Assembly (NCBI GenBank): GCA_030824075.1
Contig: JAVBYJ010000022.1
Location: 1 to 64,000, forward strand
Reading direction: 5' to 3'
DNA: 64,000 nt
From: Geothrix sp.
Lineage (GTDB): Bacteria > Acidobacteriota > Holophagae > Holophagales > Holophagaceae
In this document: positions 21,301 through 55,175 of the stretch, piece after piece
Layout of the letters: the number at the start of each line of letters is the position of its first letter
Position numbering within the stretch: position 1 is the stretch's first letter
Translations under genes and position numbers: made by a program
Notes under the pieces: model-generated
What the model was told of the DNA's origin: nothing
Seen by the model: only the letters and a program-made list of their open reading frames with translations
The model's database searches: none

Positions 21301-22716
21301 ATGACCACACCCGGCTACCGCCGCCATGTTGGCCTGTTCTCGGCCACGATGCTCATTGCCGGTTCGATGATCGGTTCAGGCGTGTTTATCGTGGCCGCCG
21401 ACATGGTCCGGACGGGCCGCTCGGGGGGCTTCCTGCTGGCGGCCTGGGGCCTCACGGCTGTGCTGACGCTCTTCGCGGCCCTGAGCTATGGCGAATTGGC
21501 GGGGATGTTCCCCAGGGCCGGAGGGCAGTACACCTACCTCCGAGAGATCTACGGCCCTGCCACGGGCTTCCTCTATGGCTGGACCTTCTTCGTCGTCATC
21601 GAGTGCGGCACCATCGCTGCCGTGGCCGTGGGCTTTGGCAAGTATCTCGGCACCTTCTTTCCCGCCATCACGGATACCACCTGGATCGGGCCCCACCTGG
21701 ACGTGCCGCTGATGCAGGTCACCCATGCCATCAGCGTAGGCCCCTACCACCTCGGACTCACGCCCTCGCGCCTCTCAGGTATCGCGGTGGTGCTGCTCCT
21801 TAGCGCCGTGAACCTCTACGGCGTGCGGCTGGGTGCCCGCATCCAGAACCTGTTCACCGTCGCCAAAATCGGCGGGCTCGCGGCCCTGATCCTGCTGGGC
21901 CTCCTGCTGAAACCCCCGGTGGCGGCGATCCAGACCCCCTTCATTCCCCTGGACGGATCCGTCGCCCTGCCCTTCCTCACGGCCCTGCTGGTGGTGCAGA
22001 CCGGCAGCATGTTCTCGGCGGACGCCTGGAACGCCATCACCTTCATCGCGGGCGAGGTGAAGGAACCCGAGCGGACGATTCCCTATTCCCTGCTCATCGG
22101 CACCACCCTGGTCTGCGGCCTCTACGTGCTGGCCAACGCCGCCTACCTGAAGGTGCTCGGCCCCACGGGCATCGCCCAGGCGCCCCAGGACCGCGTGGGC
22201 AGCGCCGCCCTCCAGGCCCTGCTGGGATCAGGAGGCGGCCTCATCATGGCGGGCAGCATCCTCATTTCCATGTTTGGTTGTCTGAACGGACTGGTGCTCT
22301 CCGGTGCCCGGGTCTACCAGCGCATGGCCGAAGATGGCCTCTTCTACCCCAGCGCGGCCTCGCTCAATGCCCATGGTGTGCCCGCCTTCGGCCTCTGGAT
22401 CCAGGCCCTCTGGACCTGCCTGCTTACGCTCACGGGCACCTACGGCCAGTTGCTGGATTTCGTCATGCTGCCGACGATCCTCTTCTACGTCTTCACGGTG
22501 GGCGGTGTCTTCCTGCTGCGCTGGCGCCGCCCTGATCTGGAGCGCCCAGTGCGGGTCTGGGGCTACCCGCTGGTGCCTGCGCTCTACCTGCTGGGGGCCA
22601 GCGCCATCATCGTCGCCCTCTTCATCCACCGTCCCAGCTATTCCTGGCCCGGCCTGTTCCTGGTGGCCCTGGGCTGGCCCGTCTACCTCGCGGTGAAACC
22701 CCGCGCCGCCGCCTGA
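21301..22716 (+). CDS. APC-superfamily amino acid permease
   Basis: 471 residues from the ATG at 21301; the longer open frame overlaps mltG in antisense. About twelve membrane helices are visible. The first helix has the APC substrate-binding motif GSMIGSGVFIV, and helix 6 the FSADAWNAITFIAGEVKEPERTIPYSL stretch (in parts) typical of the LAT/YkfD-like branch, which takes up or exchanges amino acids. The gene is followed after 18 bp by a saccharopine-dehydrogenase-like gene, so lysine or related amino-acid catabolism is a reasonable guess for the pair. Substrate not shown by the sequence. Confidence 0.9.
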   Translation: MTTPGYRRHVGLFSATMLIAGSMIGSGVFIVAADMVRTGRSGGFLLAAWGLTAVLTLFAALSYGELAGMFPRAGGQYTYLREIYGPATGFLYGWTFFVVIECGTIAAVAVGFGKYLGTFFPAITDTTWIGPHLDVPLMQVTHAISVGPYHLGLTPSRLSGIAVVLLLSAVNLYGVRLGARIQNLFTVAKIGGLAALILLGLLLKPPVAAIQTPFIPLDGSVALPFLTALLVVQTGSMFSADAWNAITFIAGEVKEPERTIPYSLLIGTTLVCGLYVLANAAYLKVLGPTGIAQAPQDRVGSAALQALLGSGGGLIMAGSILISMFGCLNGLVLSGARVYQRMAEDGLFYPSAASLNAHGVPAFGLWIQALWTCLLTLTGTYGQLLDFVMLPTILFYVFTVGGVFLLRWRRPDLERPVRVWGYPLVPALYLLGASAIIVALFIHRPSYSWPGLFLVALGWPVYLAVKPRAAA

Positions 22717-22734
22717 TCGGCAAAGGAGTCCTCC

Positions 22735-23856
22735 ATGCTGCATGTCGTCGTTCTGGGAGCTGGCCGCGTTGGCGGCGCCATGGCCAGGGATCTGGCTTCG
22801 ACCTTCAAGGTCACGGTGGCGGATCGTTCCGAAGCCGCACTGGCTCGGATGCGTGAAGCAGGCCTCGCCACCCGATCCGCCGATCTGGCGCGCCCGGACG
22901 GCGTGAAGGCCGCCGTAGCAGATGCCGATCTGGTGGTGGGCGCCGTACCGGGCTTCATGGGATTCGCCACGGCCAAGGCCGTGCTGGAGGCGGGCAAAGC
23001 ACTGGTGGACATTTCCTTCTTCGATGAGGACTGCTTCGAGCTGGACGACCTGGCGAAGCAGCAGGGCCTCACCGCCATCGTGGACTGCGGCATCGCGCCG
23101 GGCTGCCACAACATCATCCTGGGCGACCTCTCCCGCCAATGGGACCGCATCACCTCCTTCGAGTGCCTGGTGGGCGGGCTGCCCGTGATCCGCACCTGGC
23201 CCTACGAGTACAAGGCCGGCTTCAGCCCCATTGATGTCATCGAGGAATACACCCGGCCCACCCGCTATGTGAAGGACGGGAAGGTGGTGGTCTTTCCTGC
23301 CCTATCAGAACCTGAACTCCTCGACTTCCCCGGCCTGGGCACCCTGGAATCCTTCAATACCGACGGCCTCCGGAGCCTCATCAAGACATTCCCAGGGATC
23401 CCCGACATGAAGGAGAAGACCCTGCGCTATCCGGGCCACATCGAGAAGATGCGGATGTTGCGGGAGTCCGGCTTCTTCAGTAAAGAGAAGCTCCAGGTGG
23501 GAAGTGTCCAGGTCAGTCCCCTCGACCTGACCACCGCCCTGCTCTTTCCCCTGTGGTTCATGGAAGAGGGCGACGAGGACTTCACTGTCATGCGAGTCAC
23601 CGTCGAAGGCGAGAAGGCTGGTCAGCGAATGCGCCAGGAGCTGAACCTCCTCGATCGCTATGACCGCGCCACGAAGACCACTTCCATGGCGCGCACCACC
23701 GGCTACACCTGCACGGCCGCAGTGCGGCTGCTGGCCAAGGGCGGCTACTCCCGCAAAGGCATCAGCCCGCCGGAATTCGTGGGCCAGGAACCTGGCGCCT
23801 GGGCCTTCATCCGCGAGGATCTCGCCAAGCGAGGCGTGGTGTTCACCGAGGGCTGA
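22735..23856 (+). CDS. Saccharopine dehydrogenase-family protein
   Basis: 373 residues with a strong AAAGGAG ribosome site. The N-terminus is a Rossmann fold (VVVLGAGRVGGAMARDLA, then VTVADRSEAAL) for NAD(P), followed by DLVVGAVPGFMG and VDISFFDED, and the C-terminal catalytic region with VDCGIAPGCHN near 120 and LVGGLPV near 145. This matches the Lys9/LysDH-like group, which includes saccharopine reductases and L-lysine 6-dehydrogenases. It probably acts on a lysine-derived amino acid taken up by the permease encoded just upstream. The exact reaction cannot be set. A mobile element begins ten bases after its stop codon. Confidence 0.88.
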   Translation: MLHVVVLGAGRVGGAMARDLASTFKVTVADRSEAALARMREAGLATRSADLARPDGVKAAVADADLVVGAVPGFMGFATAKAVLEAGKALVDISFFDEDCFELDDLAKQQGLTAIVDCGIAPGCHNIILGDLSRQWDRITSFECLVGGLPVIRTWPYEYKAGFSPIDVIEEYTRPTRYVKDGKVVVFPALSEPELLDFPGLGTLESFNTDGLRSLIKTFPGIPDMKEKTLRYPGHIEKMRMLRESGFFSKEKLQVGSVQVSPLDLTTALLFPLWFMEEGDEDFTVMRVTVEGEKAGQRMRQELNLLDRYDRATKTTSMARTTGYTCTAAVRLLAKGGYSRKGISPPEFVGQEPGAWAFIREDLAKRGVVFTEG

Positions 23857-23863
23857 AAGCGAC

Positions 23864-24203
23864 TAGGGCCTGTTTTCAAAGTGGGGTGTGGCCGCGCAAG
23901 GGGCGCCGCCCAAGCGAGGTCAGGAAAGCGACGAAGGCGATAGCGGCACTATCGCTGAGGAGCTTGACGCAGCATCGCGCCGGGCGTCGCCCCTTGCCGG
24001 CTCCACCCTCTGCTCGGCGGAATGCCGAGCAGGAGCAGGCCCCACCTGGGGCCTGCGATAGGGTACGGGGGACGTCGGCCAGCCGCACCCCTGGCTGCGT
24101 TGGCGACCTTGAACGATGTCCCGCATCGCCCTTCGGTCGCCGCCTGGCCATGCGCGCGGCTGGACGGCGTCGCGGCTCGCATCCACTTTGAAATCAGACC
24201 CTA
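23864..24203 (+). mobile_element. Miniature inverted-repeat element, copy 1 (336 bp plus TA flanks)
   Basis: This gene-free stretch is a discrete element, 23866-24201, flanked by TA on both sides (23864-23865 and 24202-24203). Its ends are inverted repeats: the left begins GGGCCTG, TTTTCAAAGTGG and the right, reversed, GGGTCTG, ATTTCAAAGTGG, with similarity continuing to GTG.GGCCGCG / GCGAGCCGCG. Inside are several further hairpins: GCGATAG..CTATCGC near 23938, CTGCTCGGC..GCCGAGCAG near 24010 and GCAGGCCCC..GGGGCCTGC near 24035. A second copy lies inverted at 28875-29213. Small ORFs occur but are broken differently in each copy. TA duplication is typical of IS630/Tc1-mariner-type elements; no transposase is present. 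It lies between converging genes and its right end forms the last base of the rapZ stop codon. Confidence 0.85.
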
Positions 24204-25052
24204 GCCGTCCAGTTCCCGGTGCCGCACAGTCAGTGCTGCCACATCGCGCTTGAGCCGTTGGGCCAGCATTTCCACGAGCGCCACGGAGCGGTGCTGGCCC
24301 CCGGTGCAGCCGATGGCGAGGGTGTGGTAGGCCCGCCCCTCCTGCTGCACCAGGGGCAGGGACCAGCGCAGCCAGGACTCGGCGCGCTCCAGGAATTCCC
24401 GGAATTCATGGGACTCCAGCAGGTACTCCTGCACGGGCCAGTCCTGCCCCGTCAGGGATTTCAGAGCCTCGACATAGTAAGGATTGGGCAGGAACCGGGC
24501 GTCGAGGATCACGTCCGCATCGGCCGGGACGCCCCGCTTGAACCCGAAGCTGAGCAGGCGGACGGCCGTGTGACGCGTGGGCAACTGGGGCACCAGGGCC
24601 GCGATGCGAAGGCGGAGTTCAGACAGGCTGAGGTGGCTGGTGTCGAGAATGGTGGTGGCCAGGGCCCGGATGGGAGCCAGGAGGTCTCGTTCACGGCGGA
24701 TGCCCTCCCCCGCCGTTCCAAGCAGCGCCAAGTGATGGGGGCGGCGCGTCTCGGAGTAGCGGCGAAGCAGAACCTCCTCCCCGGCCTCCACAAAGACCAC
24801 CTGTACCGGGATGTTGCCCACCCGGAGGCTCTCCAGGAGCGGTCCGAATTCCTGGGCGAAGTCAGCCTGACGGCTGTCCATACCTACCACCAGCCGCTCA
24901 TGGCCGGGCTGCAACTTCGACTCCAGTTCCAGAAGCGGTTCGAGCAGCCGGGGCGGCACATTGTCCAGGGCCGTGCAGCCGCTGTCCTCCAGCGCGCCAA
25001 GCACCGAGTGGCGGCCGGCGCCCGATAGTCCCGTGACGACGATGAGTTCCAT
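24201..25052 (-). CDS. rapZ: RapZ-family nucleotide-binding regulator with altered P-loop
   Basis: 283 residues, the usual RapZ size. The C-terminal domain is well conserved (FGFKRGVPADADVILDARFLPNPYY near 165-190 read in parts, and IGCTGGQHRSVALVE near 255), the part that in E. coli binds glucosamine-6-phosphate and the GlmZ/GlmY RNAs. The N-terminal domain is kinase-like, but its Walker A motif, usually GxSGAGKS, reads GLSGAGRHS, with Arg14 and His15 replacing Lys and Ser. ATP/GTP binding there is doubtful. The TAG stop is completed by the first base of the neighbouring mobile element. A terminator and a short repeat region separate it from secA upstream. Confidence 0.9.
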   Translation of the reverse strand: MELIVVTGLSGAGRHSVLGALEDSGCTALDNVPPRLLEPLLELESKLQPGHERLVVGMDSRQADFAQEFGPLLESLRVGNIPVQVVFVEAGEEVLLRRYSETRRPHHLALLGTAGEGIRRERDLLAPIRALATTILDTSHLSLSELRLRIAALVPQLPTRHTAVRLLSFGFKRGVPADADVILDARFLPNPYYVEALKSLTGQDWPVQEYLLESHEFREFLERAESWLRWSLPLVQQEGRAYHTLAIGCTGGQHRSVALVEMLAQRLKRDVAALTVRHRELDG

Positions 25053-25063
25053 GCCTCTAAAAG

Positions 25064-25092
25064 CTATCAGCTGTCAGGTGCCGGCTGTCAGT
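25064..25092. repeat. Intergenic CTRTCAG-type repeat units
   Basis: AGCTATCAG, AGCTGTCAG and GGCTGTCAG occur in a row, ending GTCAGTAAA, just beside the secA terminator. The same units, in the opposite orientation, lie beside the terminator at 32229-32300. They look like a degenerate interspersed repeat of this genome. Confidence 0.4.
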
Positions 25093-25120
25093 AAAAACAT
25101 GCGGGGCCCGAAGGCCCCGC
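25093..25120 (-). terminator. Rho-independent terminator of secA
   Basis: An 8-bp GC stem (GCGGGGCC / GGCCCCGC) with a TTCG tetraloop on the minus strand is followed three bases later by TTTTT. It lies 27 bp after the secA stop codon and separates secA from rapZ. Confidence 0.88.
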
Positions 25121-25147
25121 TGCTCGCCGAGAACGGGCGGTTGAATC

Positions 25148-27766
<2,619 letters not shown>

Positions 27767-27905
27767 GGACCCGTCCAGTCGCGTAAACCGTCGATTGTAG
27801 CGCGGCGAGTCCCCGTTTCCCAGCACTGGAGGCTGTCGCCAAGCACTCGCGGTTGCCGAAGTTACCTAACCAGGGCACACTGATTGTTTGGATTCTGGAG
27901 AAACC

Positions 27906-28325
27906 ATGGCCTTTGAGCGCACCTTTGCCATCGTCAAGCCCGATGCCGTCAAGGACGGCCATATCGGCGAGATCTTGACCGCCATCGAGCAGAGCGGCCT
28001 GAAGCCCGTGGGTCTCAAATTGACCCGCCTCACCTCGGCCATCTGCCGGGGCTTTTACCATGAGCACGTGGGCAAGGGTTTCTACCCGGAACTGGAAGCC
28101 TTCATGACCGAAGGGCCCGTGGTCCTCATGGTGTTGGAGGGGGAGAATGCCATCCTGCGCTGGCGGGATCTGATGGGCGCCACCAACCCCGCGAATGCCG
28201 CCGAGGGCACCCTCCGCAAGCGCTTCGGTGCCAGCATCGGTCGCAACGCCACCCACGGCAGCGACAAGCCCGAGAGCGCGGCGTTTGAAGTGAGCTACTT
28301 CTTCAACGCGTTCGAACAGATGTGA
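27906..28325 (+). CDS. ndk: Nucleoside diphosphate kinase
   Basis: 139 residues from the ATG at 27906 behind CTGGAGAA. All NDK marks are present: TFAIVKPDAVKDG at the start, RGFYHEH near 50, MGATNPANAAEGTLRKRFG (19 residues) near 90 and the phosphohistidine loop GRNATHGSD with His117. It equilibrates nucleoside di- and triphosphates with a His-phosphate intermediate. Size is typical. It is divergent from secA and ends at a symmetric terminator shared with the opposite small gene. Confidence 0.97.
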   Translation: MAFERTFAIVKPDAVKDGHIGEILTAIEQSGLKPVGLKLTRLTSAICRGFYHEHVGKGFYPELEAFMTEGPVVLMVLEGENAILRWRDLMGATNPANAAEGTLRKRFGASIGRNATHGSDKPESAAFEVSYFFNAFEQM

Positions 28326-28345
28326 CGTTTCGCCGCGGTCCTCTG

Positions 28346-28377
28346 CGAAAAACGGCGCCCATGGGCGCCGTTTTTCG
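28346..28377. terminator. Bidirectional terminator between ndk and a hypothetical gene
   Basis: A 13-bp near-perfect palindrome (GAAAAACGGCGCC / GGCGCCGTTTTTC) with A- and T-runs on both sides can stop transcription from ndk and from the minus-strand gene that ends at 28401. Confidence 0.88.
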
Positions 28378-28400
28378 TTTGAGCGGAGAGGGGCGGGAAC

Positions 28401-28874
28401 TCAGCCCTCCGCCACCGCCAGCAGTGCGGACTGGCAGAGCCGGCGGACACCAGGGATCAGATCGGCGCTCTGGAGTCCCTTGTCGCTGAACCACTGGCCC
28501 CCGGGCGGCGGCGGCGGAAGCATATCGTCAGGGGCCTTGGTGCGCAGGAGGTGGCTGAGGTAGAGGCGCTGCTGACCTTCGAGCCCTTCGAGCCTCAGCA
28601 GCCAGGGCGTCGGCAGGCGGCTGGTGCGCTCGTCGAACACCACGGGCAACACCGAATTGTCCACGAACCGGAAGGGCATGCCCCAGGCCGCCTCGATCTG
28701 GGCGTTGAGCAGCGAGGTCGGCAGAAAGCCCGGCGACCAGGGGATCTGGGCAGGCATGAGCAGACCACGGTGCGGGCTGTGGGGCGAGGGCACAAGCAGG
28801 ACAAAGGGCGTCTGCTGGCCATGCACCAGTACGCCCTCGATGAAGGTGGTGAGGTGGACCCGGCCTTCGGCCAT
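28401..28874 (-). CDS. Hypothetical protein downstream of proS
   Basis: 157 residues, no signal peptide and no membrane helix. I do not recognise the family. Visible features: a beta-rich N-terminal half (GRVHLTTFIEGVLVHGQQTPFVLLVPSP, read in parts), the phrase IPWSPGFLPTSLLNAQIEAAWG near 50-70, and a Pro/Gly loop (LPPPPPGGQWF) near 120. Codon use matches the neighbours. It starts immediately at the edge of mobile element copy 2, whose end supplies the ribosome site AAGGGAGG five bases before the ATG. It was probably once directly behind proS in the same operon. The strong ribosome site and shared terminator support it as a real gene. Confidence 0.7.
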   Translation of the reverse strand: MAEGRVHLTTFIEGVLVHGQQTPFVLLVPSPHSPHRGLLMPAQIPWSPGFLPTSLLNAQIEAAWGMPFRFVDNSVLPVVFDERTSRLPTPWLLRLEGLEGQQRLYLSHLLRTKAPDDMLPPPPPGGQWFSDKGLQSADLIPGVRRLCQSALLAVAEG

Positions 28875-29213
28875 TAGGGCCTCCCTTCAAATTGGATGTG
28901 AGCCGCGACGCCGGCCAGCCGCGCCCATGGTAAGGCGCCGGCCGCAGGGCGATGCGGGACATCGTTCAAGGCCGGCAACGCCACCAGGGGTGCGGCTGGC
29001 CACGTCCCCCTCTCCCTATCGCAGGCCCCGCAGGGGCCTGCTCCTGCCCGGCGGAACGCCGGGCAGAGGGCGGAACCGGGCAAGGGGCGACGCCCGGCGC
29101 GATACCGCGTCGAACTCCTCGCCGATAGTGCCGCTATCGCCATCGTCGTTCTCCTTGTCTCGCTTGGGCGGCGCCCCTTGCGCGGCCGCACCCCAATTTG
29201 AAGGGAGGCCCTA
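28875..29213 (-). mobile_element. Miniature inverted-repeat element, copy 2 (335 bp plus TA flanks)
   Basis: This second gene-free stretch is the inverted relative of the element at 23864-24203. The element is 28877-29211, flanked by TA at 28875-28876 and 29212-29213. Its ends are a perfect inverted repeat, GGGCCTCCCTTCAAATTGG and its complement. Compared with copy 1 the ends differ in sequence (TTCAAATTGG against TTCAAAGTGG), yet within each copy left and right ends match each other. The internal hairpins (for example CTGCCCGGCG..CGCCGGGCAG and GCAGGCCCC..GGGGCCTGC) are kept with base changes on both sides. It lies between proS and the next gene on the same strand: one end forms the proS stop codon, the other gives the next gene a ribosome site. 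Confidence 0.85.
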
Positions 29214-31049
29214 ACGCCCTCCCGCGGTTTCCAGTTCCTGCATGATGCGGTCCCGTGCCGCGGAGACTTCCGCCACAGCGGCCTCAGGCTTGAGCTTGAC
29301 GACCTCCTTGGTGCGGCGGTCGCGCAGTTCCACCATGCCATCCTTCAGGCCCTTGGCGCCCACGGTAAGACGCAAGGGGAAACCCAGCAGGTCCGCGTCC
29401 TTGAACTTGGCGCCGGGGCTCAGGCCCTCGCGGTCATCGTGCAGCACTTCAAAACCCGCTGCCTCAAGATCCTTCTCCACCTGCGTGGCCACGCCGGCGA
29501 CCTCCTCGCTGCCAGGATCGAGACACACCACCTGCACCTGGTACGGGGCAATAGGCCAGGGCCAGATGATGCCGTCCGCATCGTAGTTCTGTTCGATGGC
29601 AGCCGCCACCGTGCGGGTGATGCCGATGCCGTAGCACCCCATGACCATGGGATTTTCCTTGCCCTGCTCGTCCAGGAAGGTGCAGGACATGGACTTGGAA
29701 TACTTGGTGCCGAGCTTGAAGACCTGGCCCACCTCAATGCCACGGAAGGCCTGGTAGATCCCCTTCCCACAGCGGGTGCAGACGTCGCCTTCGGCGGCCA
29801 TGCGCAGGTCCGCGAAGGTGCATCCCGGCAGGTCGCGCTTCGGATCCAGGCCAAAGTGATGGTAGTCCGTGCGGTTCGCACCGCAGGTGAGGTTCACCGC
29901 CCCGTCGAGGCTGCGATCCACGATCACCTGCACGTCCTTCAGGCCCACGGGCCCCATGAAACCGGTCTTGGCACCCGTGAAAGCCTCGGCCTCTTCCAGG
30001 GGCATCAGCTCCATTTCCGCAGCCCCGACAAGGTTCTTCACCTTCACCGGATTGACCTCGTGATCGCCTCGCAGCACCGTTCCCACCAGCTTCGTGCCGC
30101 CATCGGCGAAAGTGGCGCGGTAGAGGAAGAACTTGCTGGTCTGGGCGAGAGGCATACCGTCATGCTCGGCATCCTTCATCCCTGCGGCCTGTTCGACCTG
30201 CCCGACGATGCCAGGCGTGCGGAAATGGTCCTGCTTCAGCTCGAAGGCTTTCCCGTGATCTCCGGCGGGCAGCGTCGGAGCTTCCGTCTTCTCGATGTTG
30301 GACGTGTAATCGCACCCATCGCAGCTGAGGATGGCGTCCTCCCCGCTGCCAGCCAGCACATGGAACTCGTGGGTGAAGCTGCCGCCGATGGCGCCGCTGT
30401 CGGCCTCCACGGGCCGGAACTTCACGCCCAGCCTCGAAAAGATGCGCTTGTAGGCGTTGAACATGGCCCAATACTCGCGGTCGGCGCAGGCATCGTCGGC
30501 GTGAAAGGAGTAGCCATCCTTCATGGTGAACTCGCGGCCCCGCATGAGGCCGAAGCGGGGCCGCCGCTCGTCGCGGAACTTGGTCTGAACCTGGAAGAGG
30601 TTCATGGGCAGCTGTTTGTAGCTGCGCACGTTCTTGCGGACGATATCGGTGATCACTTCCTCATGCGTGGGACCGAGGCAGAAATTGTAGAACTCGCGCT
30701 CATCGGGTTTCTCGCCCTTCGCCCGGCGCTCGGCCAGGTCGGCCTTGGCCTTGCGGTCGCAGAAGCGGAGCAGTTCGTCGCCGTAGAACTTCCAGCGCCC
30801 ACTCTCCTGCCATAGGTCGGCCGGCAGCACGGCCGGCATGAGCAGCTCCTGGCAACCGTCCTTCTCCAGTTCCTCGCGGACGATCGCCTCGAACTTGCGG
30901 ATGCTCCGGAAGGCCAAGGGGAGGTAGCTGTAAATACCTGCCGCCACCTTCTGGATCATGCCGGCCCGCATCATGAGCTGCTGGCTCACCACGTCGGCGT
31001 CGCGGGGCGTCTCGCGCAGGGTCTGGATCAGGAGCTTCGACTGCTTCAT
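29211..31049 (-). CDS. proS: Prolyl-tRNA synthetase (bacterial type with editing domain)
   Basis: 612 residues. Class II motifs: AGIYSYLPLAFRSIRKFEAI (20) near 37 for motif 1, FRDERRPRFGLMRGREFTMKDGYSF (in parts) near 140 for motif 2, and GCYGIGITRTVAAAIEQ near 475 for motif 3. Residues ~225-400 form the inserted editing domain (INS/YbaK-like) that clears Ala-tRNA-Pro, and the C-terminal ~110 residues the anticodon-binding domain. It charges tRNA-Pro. Its TAG stop is made with one base of the mobile element inserted behind it. The plus-strand open frame across it is only a shadow. Confidence 0.97.
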   Translation of the reverse strand: MKQSKLLIQTLRETPRDADVVSQQLMMRAGMIQKVAAGIYSYLPLAFRSIRKFEAIVREELEKDGCQELLMPAVLPADLWQESGRWKFYGDELLRFCDRKAKADLAERRAKGEKPDEREFYNFCLGPTHEEVITDIVRKNVRSYKQLPMNLFQVQTKFRDERRPRFGLMRGREFTMKDGYSFHADDACADREYWAMFNAYKRIFSRLGVKFRPVEADSGAIGGSFTHEFHVLAGSGEDAILSCDGCDYTSNIEKTEAPTLPAGDHGKAFELKQDHFRTPGIVGQVEQAAGMKDAEHDGMPLAQTSKFFLYRATFADGGTKLVGTVLRGDHEVNPVKVKNLVGAAEMELMPLEEAEAFTGAKTGFMGPVGLKDVQVIVDRSLDGAVNLTCGANRTDYHHFGLDPKRDLPGCTFADLRMAAEGDVCTRCGKGIYQAFRGIEVGQVFKLGTKYSKSMSCTFLDEQGKENPMVMGCYGIGITRTVAAAIEQNYDADGIIWPWPIAPYQVQVVCLDPGSEEVAGVATQVEKDLEAAGFEVLHDDREGLSPGAKFKDADLLGFPLRLTVGAKGLKDGMVELRDRRTKEVVKLKPEAAVAEVSAARDRIMQELETAGGR

Positions 31050-31145
31050 TGGGGCCTCGAACCTTCAAGTCTAGCCCAGGAGCGGACCTTGTCCCGTTTG
31101 GAATCAGATCACGCAGCCAGACTCTGCCTGGCTGCTGATGGGGGC

Positions 31146-31189
31146 TCCGGGGGACATCGCGAGCGCAGCGGGCAGGCGGTCCCCCCGGA
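31146..31189. other. Hairpin after the yqeY gene
   Basis: TCCGGGGGAC (31146-31155) can pair with GTCCCCCCGGA (31179-31189), leaving one bulged base and a 23-base loop. It lies just behind the yqeY stop codon on the minus strand. No T-run follows, so a terminator role is uncertain. Confidence 0.35.
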
Positions 31190-31194
31190 CGACG

Positions 31195-31644
31195 TCACTC
31201 CAACAGGCTCTGCACCAGGGCGCTGGCGGCCTTGCCGTCGATGGCGCCCCCGTGGGTGGATTGAAGCGCCTTCATCACCAGACCCATATCCTTCTTCGCG
31301 GTGGCACCGGTCTGGGCAATGGCGGCCTTCACGGCGGCCTCCAAGGCCGGTCCTTCGATCATCGCCGGGAGGTAGGGCCTCAGCAGCTCGATCTCAGCGC
31401 GCTCCTGGGCGGCCCGGTCAGCCTGTCCCACCTTTTCGAATTGGGTGATGCTGTCCTCCCGGGACTTCACCAGGCGTTTGAGAACGGCCAGAGCATCCCC
31501 TTCCGCAAGGATTCCCTGCGGACTCAACCCCTTGGCCACGGCTTCGTTCTTGTAGGCCGCCAGGGCCATCCGGATCACCTGGGTGCGGACCGCATCCCGG
31601 GCCAGCATGGACGTTTTCAGATCAGCCTGCAGGCGGGCGAGCAT
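31195..31644 (-). CDS. GatB/YqeY domain-containing protein
   Basis: 149 residues from the ATG at 31644, which has a GGAGG site; the 22-codon upward extension lacks one. The protein is the all-helical YqeY family (LQADLKTSMLARDAVRTQVIRMALAAYKN in parts at the start, LVKSREDSITQFEKVGQADRAA near 60, AEIELLRPYLPAMI near 85, KKDMGLVMKAL near 118). The fold equals the tail domain of GatB, which contacts tRNA in the amidotransferase. The free YqeY proteins may bind tRNA, but their role is not established. A GatA homologue is found at 52.3 kb, not adjacent. Confidence 0.9.
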   Translation of the reverse strand: MLARLQADLKTSMLARDAVRTQVIRMALAAYKNEAVAKGLSPQGILAEGDALAVLKRLVKSREDSITQFEKVGQADRAAQERAEIELLRPYLPAMIEGPALEAAVKAAIAQTGATAKKDMGLVMKALQSTHGGAIDGKAASALVQSLLE

Positions 31645-53731: not shown

Positions 53732-55063
53732 ATGGCCTTTGACGTCGTCATGCCCCAGATGGGTGAAAGCATCGCCGAAGCTACCGTGCTGAAGTGGCAC
53801 AAGCAGGTCGGGGATGCGATTGCCAAGGACGACACCCTCTACGAGATCAGCACCGACAAGGTGGATGCGGAAATTCCCGCCCCTGCCGCCGGCACCCTGA
53901 TCGAGATCCTTGTGGATGTGAACATCACCGTCCCCGTGGGCACCGTGGTCGCCCGCATCGGCGATGCCTCCGAAAAACCCGCCGGCGGAGGCGCTCCCGC
54001 CATCGCGACCGGCGCCCTCCTTGTGGTGCCCGAGGCCGCGCCCATCCAGCCGATGAGCCACGAGGATGAGAATACCCTTGAGGGCCGGCTGAGGACCAAG
54101 AGCAGTCCCCTGGTCCGCGAAATGGCGAAGCAGCACGGCATCGACCTCGCCCGGGTTCAGGGCTCGGGTCAAGCCGGCCGCGTCACCAAGGAGGATCTGG
54201 AAGCCCACCTCGCCAAGGGCCCCAAGGCGCCCCCCGCTCCGTTGTCCATTGCCCCATCCCTGCCCGCGGTGCACGACCCCTCCGCGCCGACCATGGGTCT
54301 GGTGCCCGCTCTGGCGGTGCCCCCGGCCGCTGCCGCACCCATCTTCGCCCCTGGGGAGCGGGTCAAGATCGAGCCCATGAGCCGCATGCGCAAGATCATC
54401 GCAGACAACATGTTGGCCAGCCGCCGCACCTCCGCTCACGTCTACACGGTCTTTGAAATCGACATGACCCATGTGGCCCAGTTGCGGAACAAGCACAAGC
54501 AGGCCTTCGAGGCCCAGTTCGGCACCAAGCTCAGTTTCATGCCCTTCGTCATGATGGCCGCCTGCAAGGCCCTTCGCGCCTACCCCATCGCGAACACCTC
54601 GCTCGATGGAGACAACATCATCTACAAGCAGGACATCAACCTGGGCATCGCCGTAAGCCTGGACTGGGGCCTCATCGTGCCGGTGGTGAAGAACGCCGAC
54701 ATGATGAACCTGGGCGGCCTGGCCCGCAGTCTCAACGACCTGGCCGAACGCGCCCGCACCAAGCAACTGAAACCCGACGAGATCAGCGGTGGCACCTTCA
54801 CCATCACCAATCCTGGCGTCTATGGCGACACCTTTGGCCTGCCCATCATCAATCAGCCCCAGGTGGCCATCCAGGGCGTCGGGGCCATCGTGAAGCGGCC
54901 CGTGGTCATCACCGGCCCCGATGGCACCGATTTCATCGCCATCCGCCAGATGATGTTCAGCAGCCTGGGCTTCGACCACCGGATCATCGACGGCGCCACC
55001 GGCGACCTGTTCATGGCCTTTGTCAAAAAGGAATTGGAGACCTCCACCTTCGGATTGGAGTAG
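53732..55063 (+). CDS. 2-oxo acid dehydrogenase dihydrolipoamide acyltransferase (E2)
   Basis: 443 residues behind AGGAG. A lipoyl domain (1-80) carries Lys43 in EISTDKVDAEIPAP; a Pro/Ala linker leads to the E1/E3-binding domain (~125-165, SPLVREMAKQHGIDLARVQG, 20), a second linker, and the catalytic domain (~205-443) with FDHRIIDGATG (His417 region). It transfers acyl groups from E1-lipoamide to CoA. The DKVDAE lipoyl context and one lipoyl domain suggest a branched-chain or 2-oxoglutarate-type complex, not settled. E1 and E3 genes are not adjacent. The last 39 bases of the gene occur again 112 bp downstream. Confidence 0.93.
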   Translation: MAFDVVMPQMGESIAEATVLKWHKQVGDAIAKDDTLYEISTDKVDAEIPAPAAGTLIEILVDVNITVPVGTVVARIGDASEKPAGGGAPAIATGALLVVPEAAPIQPMSHEDENTLEGRLRTKSSPLVREMAKQHGIDLARVQGSGQAGRVTKEDLEAHLAKGPKAPPAPLSIAPSLPAVHDPSAPTMGLVPALAVPPAAAAPIFAPGERVKIEPMSRMRKIIADNMLASRRTSAHVYTVFEIDMTHVAQLRNKHKQAFEAQFGTKLSFMPFVMMAACKALRAYPIANTSLDGDNIIYKQDINLGIAVSLDWGLIVPVVKNADMMNLGGLARSLNDLAERARTKQLKPDEISGGTFTITNPGVYGDTFGLPIINQPQVAIQGVGAIVKRPVVITGPDGTDFIAIRQMMFSSLGFDHRIIDGATGDLFMAFVKKELETSTFGLE

Positions 55064-55175
55064 GACGTAAGCGACGTCTCAATGCCCGGCGGAGAGGTCT
55101 CGCGTATCACCCCCACTTTCTGGGGGTGATACCGAGAAAAAGGAATTGGAGACCTCCACCTTCGGGTTGGAGTAG
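55025..55175 (+). repeat. 39-bp direct repeat of the E2 gene 3' end, enclosing a hairpin
   Basis: The bases 55025-55063 (coding KKELETSTFGLE and the TAG stop) recur at 55137-55175 with a single difference (a at 55054, g at 55166). The 73-bp spacer holds a perfect 11-bp hairpin, TATCACCCCCA / TGGGGGTGATA (55105-55131). The duplicate is out of frame with the gene. The layout resembles an attachment-site scar or a local duplication. Confidence 0.85.

Follow-up and report, generated by a model that had tools for sequence, protein, structure and literature searches.

A mobile element between proS and its neighbour

When a mobile element is inserted where one gene ends and the next begins, how do both genes keep their translation signals? 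The question is raised by a junction on the minus strand of the 64,000-nucleotide stretch of Geothrix sp. DNA analysed here (contig JAVBYJ010000022.1, positions 1 to 64,000; referred to as the window). proS, which encodes proline--tRNA ligase (29211–31049, minus strand; matches to TIGR00409 and NF006625), is followed by a MITE-like element, copy 2 (28875–29213, minus strand), and then by a gene for a 157-residue protein (28401–28874, minus strand) that has no match in Pfam or NCBIfam. The element measures 339 nt including the TA at each end, its boundaries being given by the family alignment and by the empty sites of relatives. It contains an optional hairpin module (29008–29077, approximate limits, minus strand) that is missing from the 273-nt core form. 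A simple scan inside the element found neither an intrinsic terminator nor a sigma-70-like promoter.

Read on the minus strand, the junction is ...GCGGGAGGGCGT TAGGGCCTCCCTTCAAATTGGGG ... CCAATTTGAAGGGAGGCCCTA ATGGCCGAA... The 3' end of proS is ...GGA GGG CGT TAG, and its stop (29213–29211) is composed of the target TA and the first G of the element. This TAG opens the left (5') terminal arm, TAGGGCCTCCCTTCAAATTGGG (29192–29213, minus strand), in which a CCTCCC pairs with the Shine-Dalgarno (SD)-like sequence of the other end. The right (3') terminal arm, TCCAATTTGAAGGGAGGCCCTA (28875–28896, minus strand), carries that sequence, AAGGGAGG (28880–28887, minus strand): GGGAGG at 28885–28880 is followed by the 5-nt spacer CCCTA at 28879–28875 and by the ATG at 28874–28872. 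The original reading of a near-ideal SD sequence at ideal spacing is confirmed in the sequence. Its placement of the start two bases inside the TA flank required correction, as the ATG follows directly after the element with both its TAs. Its further claim, that the element parts proS from the gene while supplying a stop to one and an SD-like start region to the other, agrees with what can be read from the junction.

The element belongs to a MITE-like family

Our survey covers at least 96 insertion sites and 116 copies of the element, in Geothrix and five other genera of Holophagaceae. The core is 273 nt long and most copies are 246–411 nt, with optional hairpin modules at fixed places in the family alignment. 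No gene was called inside any copy and there is no transposase gene. The terminal inverted repeats have arms of about 20–22 bp that are 97% paired (71 copies). TA is present at both ends at 63 sites, 58 of which are YTAR (CTAG 32, TTAA 12, CTAA 8, TTAG 6); in the window only 63 of 765 TA sites have this form. The element therefore has several features by which MITEs are recognized: it is short, lacks a transposase gene, has terminal inverted repeats and a TA target duplication, occupies many unrelated loci and is present or absent between relatives. A relative, G020, carries an 865-bp insertion sequence (IS) with ORFs matching DUF4096 (IS4/5 family) and DDE_Tnp_1. Its ends, TAGGGTGTGTTTTCAAAGTCGG and TAGGGCCTGTTTTCAAAGTCAA, are nearly the same as those of the element, and all three of its copies have YTAR flanks. 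Because ends and target are shared, the element is, judged by these features, a MITE-like relative of IS5-type insertion sequences; the match in sequence was seen at the ends.

Copy 1 in the window (23864–24203, plus strand) has GTTTTCAAAGTGG-type ends and lies between convergent genes, its right end supplying the stop of a minus-strand gene at 24201–25052. Its end, CACTTTGAAATCAGACCCTA, is without GGGAGG and differs from that of copy 2, as had been noted originally.

Several further observations concern the family. Optional hairpin modules are present in some orthologous copies and missing from their counterparts (L083/L133 and L096/L142 are examples), as though gained and lost. Mini-versions of 56–72 bp, consisting of little beyond the two terminal arms back to back, are found at L177:944–999 (G018) and at L180:1279–1350 (contig C20 of the window's own genome). 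At L174:2674–3690 (G020), the IS5-type insertion sequence is itself interrupted by about 1.1 kb containing a 312-residue integrase-like ORF. At L087/L102, L101 and L085, copies at the same site in two species have identical arms, and their bodies are equally similar to copies elsewhere in their own genome; the arms look bound to the site and the bodies look homogenized. Unrelated to the element, the window also holds a 39-nt direct repeat (55025–55063 and 55137–55175; 97% identical, 112 nt apart).

Genes around the copies were called with a codon-bias ORF finder. At 62 of the 96 sites, at least one end of the element forms a stop codon. At 30 sites a start follows the right end within 0–5 nt; for the left end this is never the case (0/31). 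Junctions in which the element separates a stop from a start occur 16 times in one orientation and never in the other, and many other copies are located between convergent genes. Stop codons look over-used as insertion sites, even when insertions inside genes are set aside: taking this one window as the baseline, 11 of its 36 non-coding YTAR sites fall in stop codons.

The proS junction with and without the element

The junction was compared across 47 genomes of the genus Geothrix. Homologues of the 157-residue protein starting elsewhere, or an ORF absent from relatives, had been named as outcomes that would speak against the original prediction. Neither occurred: the gene is present in 41 of the 47 genomes, and in alignments its homologues share the start codon (ATG, rarely GTG). 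That relatives use the same start with and without the element counts in favour of an explanation in which the inserted element replaced the signals of the junction.

Strains without the element, the comparison proposed at the outset, have a stop-start overlap with a native SD sequence within proS. In most relatives proS ends ...GGGAGGGCGC TGATG or similar, such that the stop overlaps the next ATG, and the GGGAGG or SD sequence is located in the last proS codons. In more distant Holophagaceae, GGGAGG or a close variant runs into the proS stop and the next start lies 1–3 nt beyond; an SD sequence inside proS is therefore ancestral. Four empty genomes have a TAATG junction. In a tree of proS and the gene these sit near the filled clades, which is what TA as the target, or as the trace left by an exact loss, would lead one to expect. 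Where the site is filled, TA flanks the element on both sides. A separate empty junction, in L021 of relative G010 (upstream of position 1501), contains a 14-nt tandem duplication (GGAGGCCGCTGATG / GGAGGTCGCTGATG) that repeats the SD, stop and start.

The junction is filled in nine genomes (G000, G007, G011, G012, G014, G015, G024, G044 and G057; in G024 the contig ends inside the element). Deletion remnants are present in two more (G003 and G062), leaving 34–46 nt between the genes, GGGAGG included. The motif is thus retained at 11 of 11 sites, including those that have lost the remainder of the element. As far as the sequences go, the pattern is more than chance, because the gene start is conserved, GGGAGG is kept at all 11 filled and remnant sites, and GGGAGG is missing from the right arm of every other copy listed.

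The ORF is intact in every filled genome. Its protein is 88–94% identical to that of the window, whereas third codon positions are only 54–73% identical between filled genomes, as would be expected of a gene still in use. The element copies at this site are 92–97% identical, far less diverged than the third codon positions of their hosts. They are monophyletic by body, yet star-like and patchy on the host tree. Their low divergence may reflect strong constraint, lateral spread or both, and their history may be either one insertion with losses or spread between species.

Right arms next to starts are enriched in strong SD sequences

We scored SD strength as the duplex energy of the right arm with the anti-SD sequence, calling -5 kcal/mol or stronger 'strong' and counting orthologous sites once. 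Strong SD-like right ends are present at 12 of the 30 start-abutting sites (0–5 nt) and at 0 of 57 comparison sites, located opposite a convergent gene or distant from a start (Fisher p=5e-7). The idea of SD enrichment came from the first set of loci, and loci fetched later served as a hold-out; among the new sites in these, the counts are 3 of 7 and 0 of 27 (p=0.006). The suggestion that the GGGAGG variant is favoured at proS is supported by these family-wide statistics. With -11.3 kcal/mol, the proS-site right arm AAGGGAGG is the strongest of the surveyed family.

The two arms change together. Of the 22 pairs in the terminal helix, 17 show changes on both sides, and pairing amounts to 97%; this covariation exceeds all 500 shuffles, a control inflated by related sequences, as well as all slid controls. 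Since the two ends covary, the terminal helix is kept while the SD sequence evolves. At strong-SD sites, 38 arm positions have changed in both arms, compared with 4 that changed in the right arm alone and 5 in the left arm alone. At three loci, L004, L100 and L006, an SD-improving change is confined to the right arm, which suggests that this arm can lead. Taken together, the family statistics support selection on the right arm for SD strength where it adjoins a start, with the left arm changing along.

The same arms bear on an alternative that requires no adaptation after insertion, namely that SD-like ends pre-exist in transposon subfamilies and that insertions before a start persist only with such ends. 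We regard this as possible but doubtful. The arms within a copy do match each other, like freshly transposed terminal repeats, and the preponderance of two-arm changes at strong-SD sites is in keeping with it. However, bodies that fall in different clades of the element tree carry AAGGCAGG-type arms, and L004, L100 and L006 have their SD-improving change in the right arm alone. Start-abutting copies with a weak SD also exist (18 of 30), so a strict filter is not needed, and the GGGAGG end was seen in no copy away from the proS site among those listed.

Predicted fold and translational coupling

In the predicted fold of a filled junction, the CCUCCC of the left arm is paired with the GGGAGG of the right arm in a 22-bp helix, and the proS stop and the next start lie on opposite strands of this one long helix. 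The predicted cost of opening the SD and AUG is 22–33 kcal/mol at filled sites, compared with 9–11 kcal/mol at empty sites. When a ribosome footprint on the proS stop is masked, the cost at filled sites falls to 8–13 kcal/mol. Thus the SD sequence at a filled site is probably not freely open and would depend on ribosomes ending proS. The model predicts that the 157-residue protein is made chiefly after ribosomes have completed proS, in the manner of the ancestral overlap. Overlapping or adjacent stop and start codons, one mark of a coupled pair, are found as TGATG or TAATG in most empty genomes and are apposed by the predicted helix in filled ones. Several points count against this picture: even with a ribosome on the stop, the modelled residual of 8–13 kcal/mol is appreciable, structure just downstream of a stop can also lower coupling (PMC12548453), and many start-abutting copies (18 of 30) have a weak SD. 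In addition, the terminal helix did not arise for coupling, because copies between convergent genes have the same helix.

A fold of this kind could also mean that the whole folded body has been domesticated as a structured RNA, acting in the messenger through regulation, stability or processing. We judge this unlikely. It would account for a full-length consensus structure in which 38 of 83 pairs have two-sided changes, for the single orientation at stop-start junctions, and for the fact that, at the proS site, variable columns are fewer in paired than in unpaired positions (p=0.02). The high identity of the proS-site copies relative to the third codon positions of the next gene points the same way, but lateral spread can explain it, and many copies lie between convergent genes. 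Rfam has no family at gathering score within 22000–31500 of the window, and the element core gives matches to microRNA families only, all sub-threshold and chance-like. As a sign of strand-specific RNA selection we considered the excess of G-U over A-C. It is modest by cell (52 versus 30, co-directional copies, p=0.02) and absent by pair (36 versus 39), and we do not rely on it; the evidence for selection on the folded RNA of this strand itself is suggestive only.

Probable insertion into a stop-start overlap

The explanation that we favour, and consider probable as a whole, is that an IS5-type MITE in the proS stop-start overlap replaces both stop and SD sequence, that its arms are selected, and that their helix keeps the genes coupled. 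The element would have inserted, with TA as its target, into a TAATG overlap of the co-directional proS and 157-residue gene. As the sequence shows, proS keeps its stop, as TAG, because the element begins with G after TA, and the right arm, with AAGGGAGG-CCCTA, gives the gene a strong SD at normal spacing that stands in for the native GGGAGG of the last proS codons. SD strength of a start-abutting right arm would then be selected, and the left arm would follow. According to the folding model, the element would be looped out by a long helix of its two arms, in which the proS stop lies opposite the next start. SD and AUG would stay hidden in this helix until its base is opened by a ribosome that terminates on proS, and by this route translational coupling of the two genes may be kept.

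Coincidence without function, with a chance SD-like end and a gene silent or expressed from elsewhere in filled strains, is very improbable: the predicted burial of the SD sequence in a helix would be in its favour, but the ORF is intact with a conserved protein and strongly different third positions, GGGAGG is invariant at 11 sites, the association holds family-wide (p=5e-7) and in held-out loci (p=0.006), and the element contains no sigma-70-like promoter by simple scan.

Tentatively, the insertion-replacement explanation may extend to the family, the terminal helix of a MITE serving as a fold-out translational bridge: copies would settle in one orientation in stop-start overlaps, their ends would evolve into paired SD/anti-SD arms, and the looped-out RNA would hold stop and next start next to each other, allowing coupling to survive a 300-nt insertion.

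Comparison with known systems

The element shares with bacterial MITEs mobilized by insertion sequences its short, geneless body, terminal inverted repeats, TA at both ends, many copies and IS-like ends (PMC10969869); in contrast to the reviewed MITEs, its body is GC-rich and strongly structured. The roles reviewed there are promoters, IHF sites, RNase sites, small RNAs and ORF fusions, and a search of that review found no mention of ribosome binding, Shine-Dalgarno sequences or stop codons.

Integron attC sites are likewise foldable and palindromic and separate co-directional genes. They can contain a TAG stop, and translational coupling has been described (PMC8876359). We rejected the element as an attC site, as its left junctions (GTTAGGG or CTAGGG/CTAGGGY) depart from the GTTRRRY core and no cassette array is present. 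By analogy, it would work somewhat like attC without being one. Pneumococcal BOX repeats are MITE-like folded repeats that give stop codons, in 36 genes (PMC3049150). ORFs made by BOX are reported to lack good SD sequences (PMC3049150), whereas the end of the Geothrix element is SD-like and enriched before starts. Our literature search found mobile repeats giving stops or hairpins (attC, BOX) and none giving an SD under selection; most subscription papers lay outside the search, which is not proof of absence.

The empty proS site is a classic stop-start overlap with its SD in the upstream gene, as in translationally coupled overlapping genes, and the RNA-unfolding model proposed for such genes fits the predicted helix (PMC12548453). 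The difference is the insert of 273–393 nt between the Geothrix genes, a looped-out element that coupling would have to span. Culturable Geothrix strains that are close relatives carry this gene pair either with the insert or without it, a natural experiment in which one can ask how operons tolerate insertions and whether coupling can act across folded-out RNA. The statistical sign of selection falls on precisely the end a transposase would recognize. MITEs are a known source of promoters and of sites for mRNA processing; what this entire family appears to supply is stop codons and ribosome-binding sites.
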